This document shows, one piece after another, positions 39,329 through 47,495 of a stretch of 64,000 bases of DNA. Below the pieces are notes generated by a model that was not told the origin of the DNA, did not search any database, and was given only the letters and a program-made list of their open reading frames with translations. The DNA comes from Hydrogenobacter sp. T-8 (lineage in GTDB: Bacteria; Aquificota; Aquificia; Aquificales; Aquificaceae). How positions within the stretch are numbered: position 1 is the first letter of the stretch; each line of letters begins with the position of its first letter. The position numbers and the translations under genes are program-made. The stretch lies in contig NZ_CP048795.1 in NCBI RefSeq assembly GCF_011006175.1, positions 1,604,491-1,668,490 on the forward strand, given 5' to 3'.

Positions 39329-39402
39329 CGCGGGGTGGAGCAGCCTGGTAGCTCGTCGGGCTCATAACCCGAAGGTCGGAGGTTCAAATCCTCCCCCCGC
39401 AA
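39329..39402 (+). tRNA. Initiator tRNA-fMet (CAU)
   Basis: The 74-nt sequence from CGCGGGG to CCCCGCAA folds as a tRNA with anticodon CAT in GGGCTCATAACCC. The C1-A72 mismatch and the three G-C pairs of the anticodon stem mark it as the initiator. The 3' CCA is not encoded. The 3' part from 39359 is duplicated at 47496, because the tRNA is the attachment site of an integrated element and its 3' half now comes from the element. Confidence 0.96.
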
Positions 39403-39438
39403 CTTAAAAACCTTATAAATCAAAGCCTTGAGAAAAGC
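39359..39438 (+). repeat. attL direct repeat
   Basis: Bases 39359-39402 equal 47496-47539 exactly. After one mismatch, 39404-39438 matches 47541-47575 with a single difference. The crossover lies somewhere between the anticodon loop and the 3' end of the tRNA. The similarity beyond the tRNA shows that the element carried extra host-like sequence. Confidence 0.95.
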
Positions 39439-39500
39439 CATTCTTAAAAGCCTTGTCTTTCAATGGGATAGTTTTCAAAGCCTTGTATGTCAAAGGTCTG

Positions 39501-39538
39501 ACATTACAGAAAATTACAGGAAAACACAGGAAATTACG
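39501..39538 (+). repeat. 10-bp phased direct repeats near attL
   Basis: Four units (ATTACAGA, ATTACAGG, AACACAGG and ATTACG) start at 39503, 39513, 39523 and 39533, exactly 10 bp apart. Helical phasing near an attachment site suggests binding sites for an excisionase or integrase arm domain. No gene is found in 39439-39681. Confidence 0.55.
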
Positions 39539-39545
39539 CCCAAAA

Positions 39546-39686
39546 GTTAACCTGTAGTTAACACTTCCAAGCCTTGTCTGTCAAGGGTTTTAGATGGTCT
39601 GGGTTAACTGGTTTGTAGTGTGTTAACTGGCATGTTAACTGAGAATATGGCTAAGGCTTAGCAGTCAAGGATTTTGTGGAGTTAAC
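39546..39686. repeat. GTTAAC cluster and arm-type repeats at the left end
   Basis: Six GTTAAC hexamers occur in 141 bp (39546, 39557, 39603, 39622, 39634, 39681). The 17-mer GTTAACCTGTAGTTAAC at 39546 is repeated with two differences at 47418, and CTAAGGCTTAG at 39651 is repeated at 47436. Both repeats therefore lie inside each end of the element, as arm-type integrase sites do. Confidence 0.6.
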
Positions 39687-40269
39687 GAAATAGCCCGTAA
39701 TCTGGCAGACTAAACTTCACCTCTGGGAGGTTTATAGGCTTAGGGTTTAGCCAGTTATTCAACTTGCTACTTACAAAGCCTTCTATTGGTTTTGCTATGC
39801 CCTGCATTAGCCCACTACCCACACCCATGCCTATTGCTCCCAGTATCGGAGAAAGTAGCCCAGGGCTACCGCCTTTTGTAACAACTACAGGCTCTCTTCC
39901 TTGTTGTTTATAGCCCAATGTAGATTGTAGAGGTATGTCAAGCATATACTTTTTCATGACAGAAAGGGCTAAAAGGTCACCCACTCCTACACCACTGCCA
40001 CCAGAACCCGCTTGCCTATCCCACGGCACTATAGGGGAGTTGAGGTCTCTAAACACCGCAGACAATAACCTGCTGTAGTTGTCCCAAAATTCTCTACCTC
40101 TCTCTGGATTTAGAAAGGTAGGGGCTACAAACCTACCATAATAGCTATCCAAAGCAGGGTCAGAAATGTAATTAGCCAGTGGGCTGATGCTTTGCTTTGC
40201 TGGGCTTCCGAATAAAGCTTTGCCTACTCCACTTACAACTTTGCCTATTGCCTTACCGATACTGCCCAT
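39682..40269 (-). CDS. Glycine-rich virion/ejection-like protein
   Basis: The 195-residue protein begins MGSIGKAIGKVVSGVGKALF. This amphipathic, glycine-rich opening is like many phage internal virion or DNA-ejection proteins. A central GSGGSGVGVGDLLAL and a second glycine-rich hydrophobic segment (LLSPILGAIGMGVGSGLMQG, about 138-157) follow. No family match is certain. It is the last gene of the minus-strand run, 4 nt after the small-terminase-like gene, which also suggests a virion-linked role. Confidence 0.5.
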   Translation of the reverse strand: MGSIGKAIGKVVSGVGKALFGSPAKQSISPLANYISDPALDSYYGRFVAPTFLNPERGREFWDNYSRLLSAVFRDLNSPIVPWDRQAGSGGSGVGVGDLLALSVMKKYMLDIPLQSTLGYKQQGREPVVVTKGGSPGLLSPILGAIGMGVGSGLMQGIAKPIEGFVSSKLNNWLNPKPINLPEVKFSLPDYGLFR

Positions 40270-40273
40270 GACA

Positions 40274-40687
40274 TTACCTCCTTAGGTTTTCAAGTCTTTG
40301 CTTGGCTTCTTGAAGTGCTTGGATAAGCTCCTTGTTTGTTGAAACCTGCATTTTCATCGTTCCATCTACTTCCCACTTACTTCTTAAATCTCCTGTCGCC
40401 CTCAGGAATAGCTCTATTGCTTTTAAGTTTCCTCGCTGTGCTTTCTCTATTAGCTTTTGATAGATGAGAGGAGTTGCTTCGTTAAATAGCCTTTCTTTGG
40501 CTTCCTCTGTTATTAGCTTGTAAAAGTTTATGCCTTTGACCCTTAATGCGTGGATTTCAGATTTAGCTGTGTTGTAATTGACCCCCGCAATCTCACAGGC
40601 TTGTTTCAGTGATAGAGTAAAGGCATGTTCTACCATTGCCCTATAAACCCTTTGCAAAACTGGTGGCAGGTCTTCCACTATAACCAT
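40274..40687 (-). CDS. Small-terminase-like HTH protein
   Basis: The 137-residue protein has an N-terminal helix-turn-helix (SLKQACEIAGVNYNTAKSEI, about 27-46). A helical region with RGNLKAIELFLRATGDLRSKW follows, like the 'GNxKALELLLK..G' part of phage small terminase subunits (phBC6A51-type). A small terminase picks the DNA to package; satellites encode their own to redirect helper packaging. No large terminase is present. A general HTH regulator is the alternative. Confidence 0.5.
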   Translation of the reverse strand: MVIVEDLPPVLQRVYRAMVEHAFTLSLKQACEIAGVNYNTAKSEIHALRVKGINFYKLITEEAKERLFNEATPLIYQKLIEKAQRGNLKAIELFLRATGDLRSKWEVDGTMKMQVSTNKELIQALQEAKQRLENLRR

Positions 40688-40838
40688 CTCAATGTTTAAG
40701 ATGTGCCTGTGTCAAGGGCTAAAATGAACCTACGCCACTCAATCTATGACCTTAGGGCTGTCAAAGTCCATAACCTTAAACTTGGCTGGCTATGGCTAAG
40801 GGTTAACGGTCAAATGGTGCTTGCCCTCTGTCCTTGTG

Positions 40839-45875: not shown

Positions 45876-45889
45876 GCCATGTTTTTGTG

Positions 45890-45931
45890 GTTAACTAACC
45901 ATAAGGCATTAGGTTATAAGGGTTGGTTAAC
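45890..45931. repeat. Imperfect inverted repeat GTTAACTAACC / GGTTGGTTAAC
   Basis: The third copy of the GTTAACTAACC inverted repeat, with one mismatch in the right arm and a 20-nt loop. It lies 26 nt before the next ORF. Confidence 0.75.
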
Positions 45932-45957
45932 TGCCATGTGGCTATAGGAGTTTAGGA

Positions 45958-46188
45958 ATGAAAGGCAGTGAGGAAGTGAAGGAGCTAATAGCTTACTACA
46001 AGCACCTATTTAGCCATGTGTGGAATGCTTTACTTTTGCTTACTGGTGGTCTTGTGGGGCTTGCTTTTAAGTGGGAGAGCCTGCTTGCAAAAGGGCTAAT
46101 CTTGTCAGGCTCTTTAGTGTGGGTTTTTCTTTTTATTTTTGCTATCAGTTTACACATAAGAGCCAGAAGGCTCATAAGGAGGTTATAG
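45958..46188 (+). CDS. Two-span small membrane protein
   Basis: The 76-residue protein has a charged start (MKGSEEVKELIAYYKHLF), two hydrophobic segments (about 23-40 and 47-66) and a basic end (RARRLIRRL). AGGAG precedes the ATG at about 10 nt. A holin-like or superinfection-exclusion role is conceivable, but nothing in the sequence proves it. Confidence 0.6.
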   Translation: MKGSEEVKELIAYYKHLFSHVWNALLLLTGGLVGLAFKWESLLAKGLILSGSLVWVFLFIFAISLHIRARRLIRRL

Positions 46189-46190
46189 CA

Positions 46191-46298
46191 ATGGACAAGC
46201 TATTAGGCATTAGCATAATCGTATTAATCTCAGTCCTACTTGTAGGTATGCTTGCCTACATGACATGGACTGTCTGGCACGATGAACCTAAGGGTTGA
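46191..46298 (+). CDS. 35-residue single-span membrane peptide C
   Basis: AAGGAGG lies 9 nt before the ATG. The product is MDKLLGISIIVLISVLLVG plus a short tail ending WHDEPKG, with one membrane helix. The stop lies 8 nt before the integrase start. Confidence 0.62.
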   Translation: MDKLLGISIIVLISVLLVGMLAYMTWTVWHDEPKG

Positions 46299-46306
46299 GG
46301 TCTGTC

Positions 46307-47422
46307 ATGGCTAAGGCAAGAAAGAAAGGCAAAGTATCCTACGGAGACAACCTTTATGAAATTCATGGCTCTTATTGGCTAAAGTTCACATACAAAGGCA
46401 AGACTTACTATGAGAGGATTGGCAAGGTTGATGAAATGCCTTTGACAATGGCAAGGAACATAGCCATAAAGATAAAGCAAGAGATAATTCAAGGCACTTA
46501 CCTACCAGTAAAAGAGAAGGGACTGACCTTTAGAGAAGTGGCACAGGAATATCTCAAGTGGTATGAGACCCACCATCACAACACTAAGGAAAGCACCAAG
46601 AGAAAACACAAGCATGTAGTCCAAAAGCTCGTAGAAGTTTTTGGCTCTTTGCCTGCAAGCAATATAACCACACTGAGAATTGAAAGCTACAAACAGGAAA
46701 GGCTTAAAGAAGGAGTTAGTCCAAAAACAATAAACAATGAGCTTTCTACTCTTAGAGCCATCCTCAGAAAAGCCAAAGAACTTGGACTTATCCACTTTGA
46801 CCTGCCAAAGATAAACCTTTTAAAGGTTAGCAATGAAAGAGTTAGGTATTTACTCCCAGAGGAAGTAGACAGGCTTATAAGCAACCTGCCAGACTGGTTA
46901 AAGCCAATGGTAGAGTTTGCCCTTTACACCGGGCTAAGGGCTGGAGAACTCACAAGCCTTAAGTGGGACATGGTAGACTTTGCAAGCTCAAGCCTACAAT
47001 TGCCCGCCAGCCTTTCCAAAAACAAAGAGACCGCACGCATACCACTAAACTCCAGAGCTATTGAGATACTAAAGGAGATAAAGGAAAAGCAAGAGAAGTC
47101 AGGCATAGGACATGGCTATGTGTTTACCAACTCAAAAGGTGAGCCATACTCAGAAGGTGGCTATAGGAAAGCCTTTAACAACGCACTAAGGAAGTCCAAC
47201 ATAGTGGACTTTAGGTTTCATGACCTTAGGCATACCTTTGCCAGCTGGCTTGCCATGAAAGGAGTAGACCTCTACACCATACAACACCTAACAAGGCATA
47301 AGTCTACCAACATGGTAAAGAGATACGCCCACCTTAGCCCAGAGCATCTAAGAGAGGCTGTCAAGAAACTGGAGGACATGCCTAAGGTCATACCTTTCCC
47401 TAATGCTAAGGAAAATAGTTAA
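46307..47422 (+). CDS. int: Tyrosine site-specific integrase
   Basis: From the ATG at 46307 the protein has 371 residues. The N-terminal arm-binding domain (about 1-65, KGKTYYERIGKVDEMPLTMA) and a SAM-like core-binding domain (about 70-165) lead to the catalytic domain with R in TGLRAGELTSLKW, HxxR in HDLRHTFAS, H in LTRHKSTN and the nucleophile Y in KRYAHLSP. It integrates the element into the tRNA-fMet gene. The frame's TTG start at 46295 overlaps peptide C and has no ribosome site. A GTTAAC covers its stop codon. Confidence 0.95.
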   Translation: MAKARKKGKVSYGDNLYEIHGSYWLKFTYKGKTYYERIGKVDEMPLTMARNIAIKIKQEIIQGTYLPVKEKGLTFREVAQEYLKWYETHHHNTKESTKRKHKHVVQKLVEVFGSLPASNITTLRIESYKQERLKEGVSPKTINNELSTLRAILRKAKELGLIHFDLPKINLLKVSNERVRYLLPEEVDRLISNLPDWLKPMVEFALYTGLRAGELTSLKWDMVDFASSSLQLPASLSKNKETARIPLNSRAIEILKEIKEKQEKSGIGHGYVFTNSKGEPYSEGGYRKAFNNALRKSNIVDFRFHDLRHTFASWLAMKGVDLYTIQHLTRHKSTNMVKRYAHLSPEHLREAVKKLEDMPKVIPFPNAKENS

Positions 47423-47495
47423 CCTGTGGTTAATGCTAAGGCTTAGGTATTCCTAAAACCTTTATCAATCAAGAACTTCAGAAATTTAGCTTTCT

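Follow-up and report, generated by a model that had tools for sequence, protein, structure and literature searches.

A putative TerS-bearing phage satellite integrated in the initiator tRNA gene of an Aquificota genome

Phage satellites have been defined as non-phage elements that encode mechanisms or signals favouring their own packaging (PMC11389934). The described systems closest to the locus reported here are the phage-inducible chromosomal islands (PICIs) of Gram-negative bacteria, one of which, PmCI172, has a Mu-like helper (PMC6092414), and the phage-inducible chromosomal minimalist islands (PICMIs) of Vibrionaceae (PMC10803314). Our literature searches for phage satellites in Aquificales or Aquificae found none. 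Here we analysed an integrated element in a window of 64 kb (genome G000, contig C1, 1604491-1668490) from a complete 1.806-Mb genome; coordinates below are window positions unless another contig is named. The original prediction, made from this DNA alone, had described a PICI-like satellite in the initiator tRNA gene (tRNA-fMet) of an Aquificales host, and Aquificota is indeed in keeping with all of the nearest relatives. We consider the element to be probably, if not securely, a phage satellite that bears a small terminase subunit (TerS) on an integration and replication core with an exchangeable transfer module.

The gene content agrees with this reading. Profile searches of the element's proteins against Pfam, PHROG and NCBIfam detected no gene for a capsid, portal, large terminase subunit (TerL), tail, lysis, relaxase or type IV secretion system (T4SS), as had been predicted for capsid, portal and TerL. 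The element is thus not an autonomous phage, and a packaging function is apparently encoded by its TerS homologue. The tyrosine integrase, AlpA-type helix-turn-helix (HTH) protein, primase-helicase and ribbon-helix-helix (RHH) protein named in the prediction were all recovered by profile matches. The presence of integrase, AlpA and primase together with the lack of relaxase, T4SS and structural genes is the combination known from PICIs (PMC6092414) and PICMIs (PMC10803314), which argues for a satellite.

Integration was evident from the attachment (att) sites. The tRNA-Met(CAT) gene at the left end, the only match of the Rfam scan, shows the initiator hallmarks C1:A72 and three G:C pairs in the anticodon stem. 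The predicted direct repeat of its 3' end was found to be 83 nt long with 96% identity between the copies, which are spaced 8,137 bp apart; it comprises approximately 45 bp of the tRNA-fMet 3' half and approximately 35 bp past the tRNA end. Empty sites and related islands, both of which the prediction had proposed to seek in relatives, were found. In genome G013 the tRNA-fMet locus is uninterrupted, with left flank, tRNA-fMet and right flank aligning over 862 bp at 95%, and in G010, G008 and G004 the right-flank sequence lies a short distance past tRNA-fMet, giving empty sites in four congeneric genomes. When set against the empty site of G013, the G just past the tRNA in attR is native, the C at this position in attL is not, and an upstream T in attR is non-native. 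These mismatches place the crossover in the tRNA-fMet 3' half (Table 1), and therefore the present 3' end of the gene was supplied by the element. The att structure and the empty sites show site-specific integration into tRNA-fMet, and this precise duplication is a further argument for a satellite. The arm module beside attL (Table 1) presumably holds the arm sites of integrase and excisionase.

The tRNA-fMet locus is an integration hot spot in the genus. In G001 it is occupied by an inverted-repeat (IR) site of a type described below and a SocA/Panacea-type gene, in G009 and G007 by the arm module, and in G003 by a decayed integrase. The G006 locus holds a 16-kb stretch (L291 1538-17711) of large helicase/ATPase-like open reading frames (ORFs) without a relative of the integrase, possibly a defence island. 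No prophage was seen at tRNA-fMet in 14 congeneric genomes, in several of which contigs break; those of G001, G005, G007, G009 and G049 end inside islands.

The terS-like gene, another claim of the original prediction, matched PF13022 above the curated cut-off (Table 1) and gave weak PHROG terminase matches. Its sole homologue in 136 Aquificota genomes is a G062 protein (E 1e-11, 34-35% identity), encoded directly 5' of TerL (PF03237, 2.7e-9) and an SU10-type portal (5e-132); this homologue itself matches the terminase family phrog_24579 (5e-6). On these sequence relationships the TerS identity of the element gene holds, and both the profile score and the position of the homologue point to a satellite. 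The top Foldseek row among PDB structures for the TerS model, which was not significant, was 2AO9, which we take to belong to PF13022. The 2AO9 structure has been described as a TerS nonamer from a Bacillus cereus prophage (PMC7672466). The Campylobacter phage whose TerL is closest was also considered, and its gene ahead of TerL gave no useful alignment to TerS.

The terS gene is followed by that of a 195-aa protein, P195, which begins 4 nt past the terS stop. Because of this gap, and because the ribosome-binding site of P195 lies inside the last terS codons, the two look like one operon. P195 is the predicted ejection-like gene, for which a family or database match was not found (Pfam, PHROG, and phage and plasmid collections), although indirect support was. 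Three Aquificota SU10-type podovirus prophages (G062, G021 and G040, the last in a complete genome, L058/L305) encode a Gly-rich protein of 233-268 aa followed by proteins of approximately 350-390 and 1,140-1,450 aa, and we take these three as ejection proteins by gene order. P195 resembles the G062 ejection-position protein at the N-terminus (GVGKALFGSPAK / GIGKALFGSSDK), aligns with the three podoviral C-termini at shuffle frequencies of 0.0095-0.057, and shares the rare motif N[LIV]P-x(3-8)-[ILV]P-x-YG, defined after the fact, with the G021 and G040 podoviral proteins only among 4,214 ORFs. Because the motif is post hoc and the N-terminal and motif similarities are not collinear, we regard the ejection-like assignment as suggestive. 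One profile of ejection-type proteins had P195 within it and is not independent, and the predicted fold was of too low confidence for a structure search. The resemblance of P195 to ejection-position proteins nevertheless favours a satellite, as do the integrase family and AlpA shared with the related G021 podovirus.

Plasmid homologues of the terS-like and ejection-like proteins had been named in advance as evidence against a satellite. Neither TerS nor P195 had any match in the plasmid and annotated phage collections; the closest counterparts of both come from podoviral prophages. A second explanation is a cryptic integrative plasmid, whose spread would depend solely on excising, replicating and then being taken up naturally or packaged by chance, and in which the TerS-like gene would be an HTH regulator. 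The Pfam name of PF13022, HTH_Tnp_1_2, would suit such a plasmid, as would the primase, which resembles plasmid and phage proteins alike, and a sister island without a recognisable transfer gene of any sort. The placement of the TerS homologue ahead of TerL and portal, the phrog_24579 match and the pairing of terS with P195 speak against it, and we consider it improbable.

The SU10-type podoviruses also raise the question of descent from a phage. They have in common with the element TerS (G062), possibly the ejection-position protein, and, in the approximately 37-kb G021 podovirus, broadly related integrase and AlpA proteins, but they differ in having TerL, portal, major capsid protein and tail genes, which the element is without. 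A podovirus prophage remnant with its structural block deleted would account for the podoviral counterparts of TerS and P195 and for the shared integrase type and AlpA. It could also draw on G049, in which a tRNA-Val arm module adjoins the terminal part of a large protein similar to the final structural gene of Roseobacter phage CRP-207 (L248 1-1011); this may be a prophage using a satellite-type attachment site. Yet all genes of the element are open and compactly arranged, the integrases of the G021 prophage and of a host integrative and conjugative element (ICE) form a supported branch separate from the element type, and G013 and G012 hold this core as a distinct lineage free of phage structural genes. 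These intact sisters weaken the remnant explanation, which appears very improbable.

The nearest relatives of every conserved element gene are other Aquificaceae islands. Judged from these relationships, the kin of the element by descent are the tRNA-Val and tRNA-fMet islands of the same genus, not PICIs. The sister island in G013 (L016; 7.5 kb, in tRNA-Val(CAC), with a 48-bp repeat) shares the integrase (65%), primase (approximately 64-65%), AlpA (77%), ORF86 (93-94%), RHH (90%) and the 76-aa membrane protein (100%), and lacks terS, P195 and any recognisable transfer gene. Its attL arm module is 92-95% identical, and the module recurs beside tRNA-fMet or tRNA-Val in G009 (both), G005, G049, G045, G012 and G007, the G045 copy being decayed (2.3 kb, truncated integrase). 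The G012 island, on two contigs (L036 and L299), has the same integrase block (integrase, AlpA, ORF86, ORF125, RHH and membrane genes) but differs in a DUF3854-type primase, a RusA-like gene and toxin-antitoxin-like genes. At the DNA level, the element and the G013 island are 91-99% identical over 45855-46555 (membrane genes to integrase N-terminus), 53-78% over 46555-47249 (core-binding/catalytic part), and 96% near the C-terminus. Across this mosaic (45855-47349 against L016) the arm-binding end and arm sites are constant, the middle has diverged and the target tRNAs differ (fMet and Val), a pattern that would fit exchange of target specificity by recombination.

A more distant cousin brings in a conjugative alternative. 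The 9.0-kb G044 island (L020 2825-11860) is integrated in tRNA-Val (att 2785-2824 and 11861-11900) and resembles the element in integrase (46%), AlpA (46%), helicase (35%), tiny membrane genes and att-arm layout, in which the 11-bp repeat lies close to each end. It carries an RHH gene, an 880-aa membrane protein and a relaxase-like gene, and no terS or P195. The relaxase-like protein has an NHxH motif and matches Pfam Relaxase (7.5e-4) and NCBIfam RlxS (7e-4), both below cut-off, with no match in PDB or the plasmid collection. Furthermore, the host genome of our element contains an ICE (C1 806000-818700, L040). Its T4SS genes include a TrbI/VirB10-type gene and a VirB4-like ATPase; further genes are ParB-like and DnaB-like, and its integrase shares 44% identity with the element's. 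The element could be an iOriT-type integrative mobilisable element without its own relaxase, moved in trans by this ICE after excision and replication, with TerS and P195 as podovirus cargo. Given the relaxase-like gene in the cousin, conjugation-helped movement is a live rival, but we judge it unlikely. The relaxase by which integrative mobilisable elements are recognised is absent from the element, the integrase of the ICE falls on another branch, and the upkeep of an intact, translationally coupled terS operon would be unexplained. Element and ICE have no DNA in common outside the integrase gene, and therefore no sign of a borrowed origin of transfer was seen, a comparison in which unrelated origins are not recognisable.

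Several observations weigh against a TerS-bearing satellite. Packaging and helper are predictions from gene content, TerS identity is just 34% with Foldseek matches that are not significant, and the P195 similarity is sub-threshold (E 0.32; probability 3.6%). TerS is missing from the sister and all other family members found, so that spread of the family needs no TerS, and the G044 cousin joins the same kind of core to a relaxase-like gene. No SU10-type phage was found in the element's own genus, and no pac or cos stretch is shared with any prophage compared. A wider proposal is that Aquificaceae tRNA islands share a core of integrase, AlpA, primase, att arms and tiny membrane proteins and exchange the transfer module (TerS with an ejection-type protein to use podovirus particles, a relaxase to use conjugation, or neither), the TerS-bearing member being a thermophile-phage satellite with its own ejection protein; we put this forward only tentatively, as rather doubtful.

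Candidate helpers were sought in the host, and relatives of the element in virus and genome collections. The host genome has a complete-looking Mu-like myovirus prophage (approximately C1:41000-72500; L053, L054) with MuA/MuB-type genes, its own TerS (phrog_426), TerL, major head protein, sheath, tape measure and baseplate. As this prophage and the ICE are in the same genome, both kinds of helper are present in the host. Past the prophage (approximately C1:74944-75649, L054), the six-frame translation contains a repeated peptide, SFNSTRWISN, like a translated CRISPR array. Searches of IMG/VR with TerS, primase, integrase, P195 and alignments returned distant generic integrases only and no related viral contig. 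A scan of genome contigs with the integrase alignment likewise gave distant integrases, with no Aquificota listed, and nothing among annotated phages was close to the element genes.

If the element is a satellite, its cycle might run as follows, the first step being visible in the att structure and the empty sites. The integrase recombines attP with the tRNA-fMet 3' half, restoring the tRNA. Upon induction, the AlpA-type protein would act as excisionase or activator, the integrase would excise the circle, and the primase-helicase would replicate it from the palindromic region 3' of its own gene, as the domains and PICI and PICMI precedents suggest. A ring of the element's TerS could then recognise a site in the element DNA and dock this DNA onto the TerL and capsid of a tailed phage, either resident or co-infecting. 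P195, translated together with TerS, might serve as a particle or ejection component, which is the weakest step. The most likely helper would be a podovirus with an SU10-type portal, as found among Aquificota prophages; the Mu-like prophage of the host is less likely. RHH and the gene divergent to it are probably the lysogeny switch.

The genes fall into a leftward block (P195, terS, ORF116, ORF265, primase, alpA, ORF76, ORF86 and ORF125) and a rightward block (RHH, four tiny membrane genes and int), separated by a 120-bp divergent region between ORF125 and RHH that holds a TTGACA/TATAAT-like promoter (Table 1). The primase-helicase matched Zn_ribbon_DnaG (2e-11), AAA_25 (2e-21) and phrog_239 (1.5e-23), and the AlpA-type protein HTH_17 (4e-12) and TIGR01764 (5e-9). 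We do not claim a 4-nt overlap between the 35-aa membrane gene (TM35) and int like that of PICMI iolg; int more probably starts at the ATG that has a ribosome-binding site of its own. The PADLOC scan gave no defence protein for the element, with one sub-threshold row only.

Two kinds of putative cis element were found. The predicted origin-like region took shape as a palindrome and direct repeats 3' of the primase, and the palindrome is kept, in two copies, in the G013 sister. In addition, the element has three copies of GTTAACTAACC-N18-20-GGTTRGTTAAC (at 40839, 41250 and 45890; 0 expected by chance). Among 31 genomes this IR site is confined to four members of the genus: it lies in both islands (the element and G013, L016 6913 and 12431), next to tRNA-fMet in G001 and on a short contig of G005 (further sites L266 2875 and L267 458), with a spacer of N18-21 before GGTTAGTTAAC overall. 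GTTAAC itself is found 16 times in the 8.1-kb element against 6 in the flanking 55.7 kb. Several IR sites lie a short way upstream of genes, and the G013 counterpart of IR3 has the same distance to the 76-aa membrane gene. They may be operators or replication sites; we do not propose IR1-IR3 as pac sites, since the TerS-less sister has IR sites too.

Table 1. Coordinates of the element, its attachment sites and its predicted genes
Feature	Position	Strand	Basis
tRNA-fMet gene, integration target	39329..39403	+	ARAGORN, Rfam, empty sites in relatives
attL repeat	39356..39438	+	repeat search; crossover within 39359-39402
attL arm module: AAGCCTTGtctgTCAA repeats, ACAGGAAA repeats, 11-bp direct repeat AGTTAACCTGTAGTTAACAC	39404..39640		sequence
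P195, Gly-rich, 195 aa, last gene before attL	39682..40269	-	ORF call
terS-like gene, predicted small terminase subunit, 137 aa	40274..40687	-	PF13022 4.3e-7
IR1, GTTAACTAACC-N19-GGTTAGTTAAC, upstream of terS	40839..40879		pattern search
ORF116, conserved protein	40871..41221	-	homologue in G012 island, 42%, E 1e-15
ORF265, conserved protein	41184..41981	-	two copies in sister element, 58% and 44%
IR2, upstream of ORF116	41250..41289		pattern search
Origin-like region: AT-rich palindrome around TATATATATA and two 35-nt direct repeats	42000..42175		directly 3' of primase gene
Primase-helicase, 651 aa: DnaG Zn ribbon, TOPRIM, RepA/KaiC ATPase	42177..44132	-	Pfam, PHROG
AlpA/excisionase-type HTH protein; start ATG 44355 behind AAGGAGGGAG	44125..44355	-	profile matches
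ORF76, small ORF, 76 aa	44483..44713	-	weak match in sister
ORF86, family-specific	44710..44970	-	93-94% in G013, 72% in G012
ORF125, family-specific, divergent to RHH gene	44967..45344	-	52% in G012
RHH regulator	45466..45654	+	RHH profile 2e-6
Tiny membrane protein, 36 aa	45651..45761	+	ORF call
Tiny membrane protein, 36 aa	45765..45875	+	ORF call
IR3, 27 bp upstream of 76-aa membrane gene	45890..45931		pattern search
Membrane protein with two transmembrane segments, 76 aa	45958..46188	+	100% identical in sister
Tiny membrane protein (TM35), 35 aa, directly 5' of int	46191..46298	+	ORF call
Tyrosine integrase; start ATG 46309 behind TTGAGGT, or TTG 46295	46309..47422	+	PF00589 7.4e-38
attR repeat	47493..47575	+	repeat search

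If the satellite assignment is correct, phage satellites would extend to an early-branching thermophilic phylum. Natural comparisons are available within one genus, which has the intact island and a sister that lacks TerS as well as decayed copies and empty sites. Moreover, if terS and a relaxase do replace one another on a common core, the switching of helper-dependent elements between phage and conjugative helpers could be tested directly; helper switching by 'hitcher' elements is a theme of a review (PMC11389934).

Comparison with known satellites places the element near two of them. Like the Gram-negative PICIs EcCICFT073 and PmCI172, it is small, with an integrase, an AlpA-type regulator, and a primase and origin; it has no structural or lytic genes, terS is present in some PICIs, and the host has a Mu-like prophage, the kind of helper used by PmCI172 (PMC6092414). 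The integrase, regulator (alpA or stl) and replication module that mark a PICI are thus all present, whereas the closest orthologues, which in a PICI are PICI genes (PMC6092414), are those of Aquificaceae islands. That the att site is never used by prophages, as stated for PICIs (PMC6092414), is doubtful for this family. The gene families are not those of PICIs, no PICI-specific gene, including an interference gene, was found in the element, the primase is of the DnaG/RepA type, and the host phylum is far from known PICI hosts. Hence the PICI-like part of the original prediction stands for the architecture, shared with Gram-negative PICIs and PICMIs, for TerS and for the lack of a structural operon, but not for membership of the PICI family. 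With the PICMIs of Vibrionaceae the element shares a minimal core of int, alpA and primase and the lack of capsid-remodelling genes (PMC10803314). PICMIs differ in adjoining fis and in a DUF3987/DUF5906 primase, against tRNA-fMet and a DnaG/RepA-type primase here, and the paper describing them mentions no terminase (PMC10803314), whereas the element has terS. The element works like a PICI or a PICMI and descends from neither.

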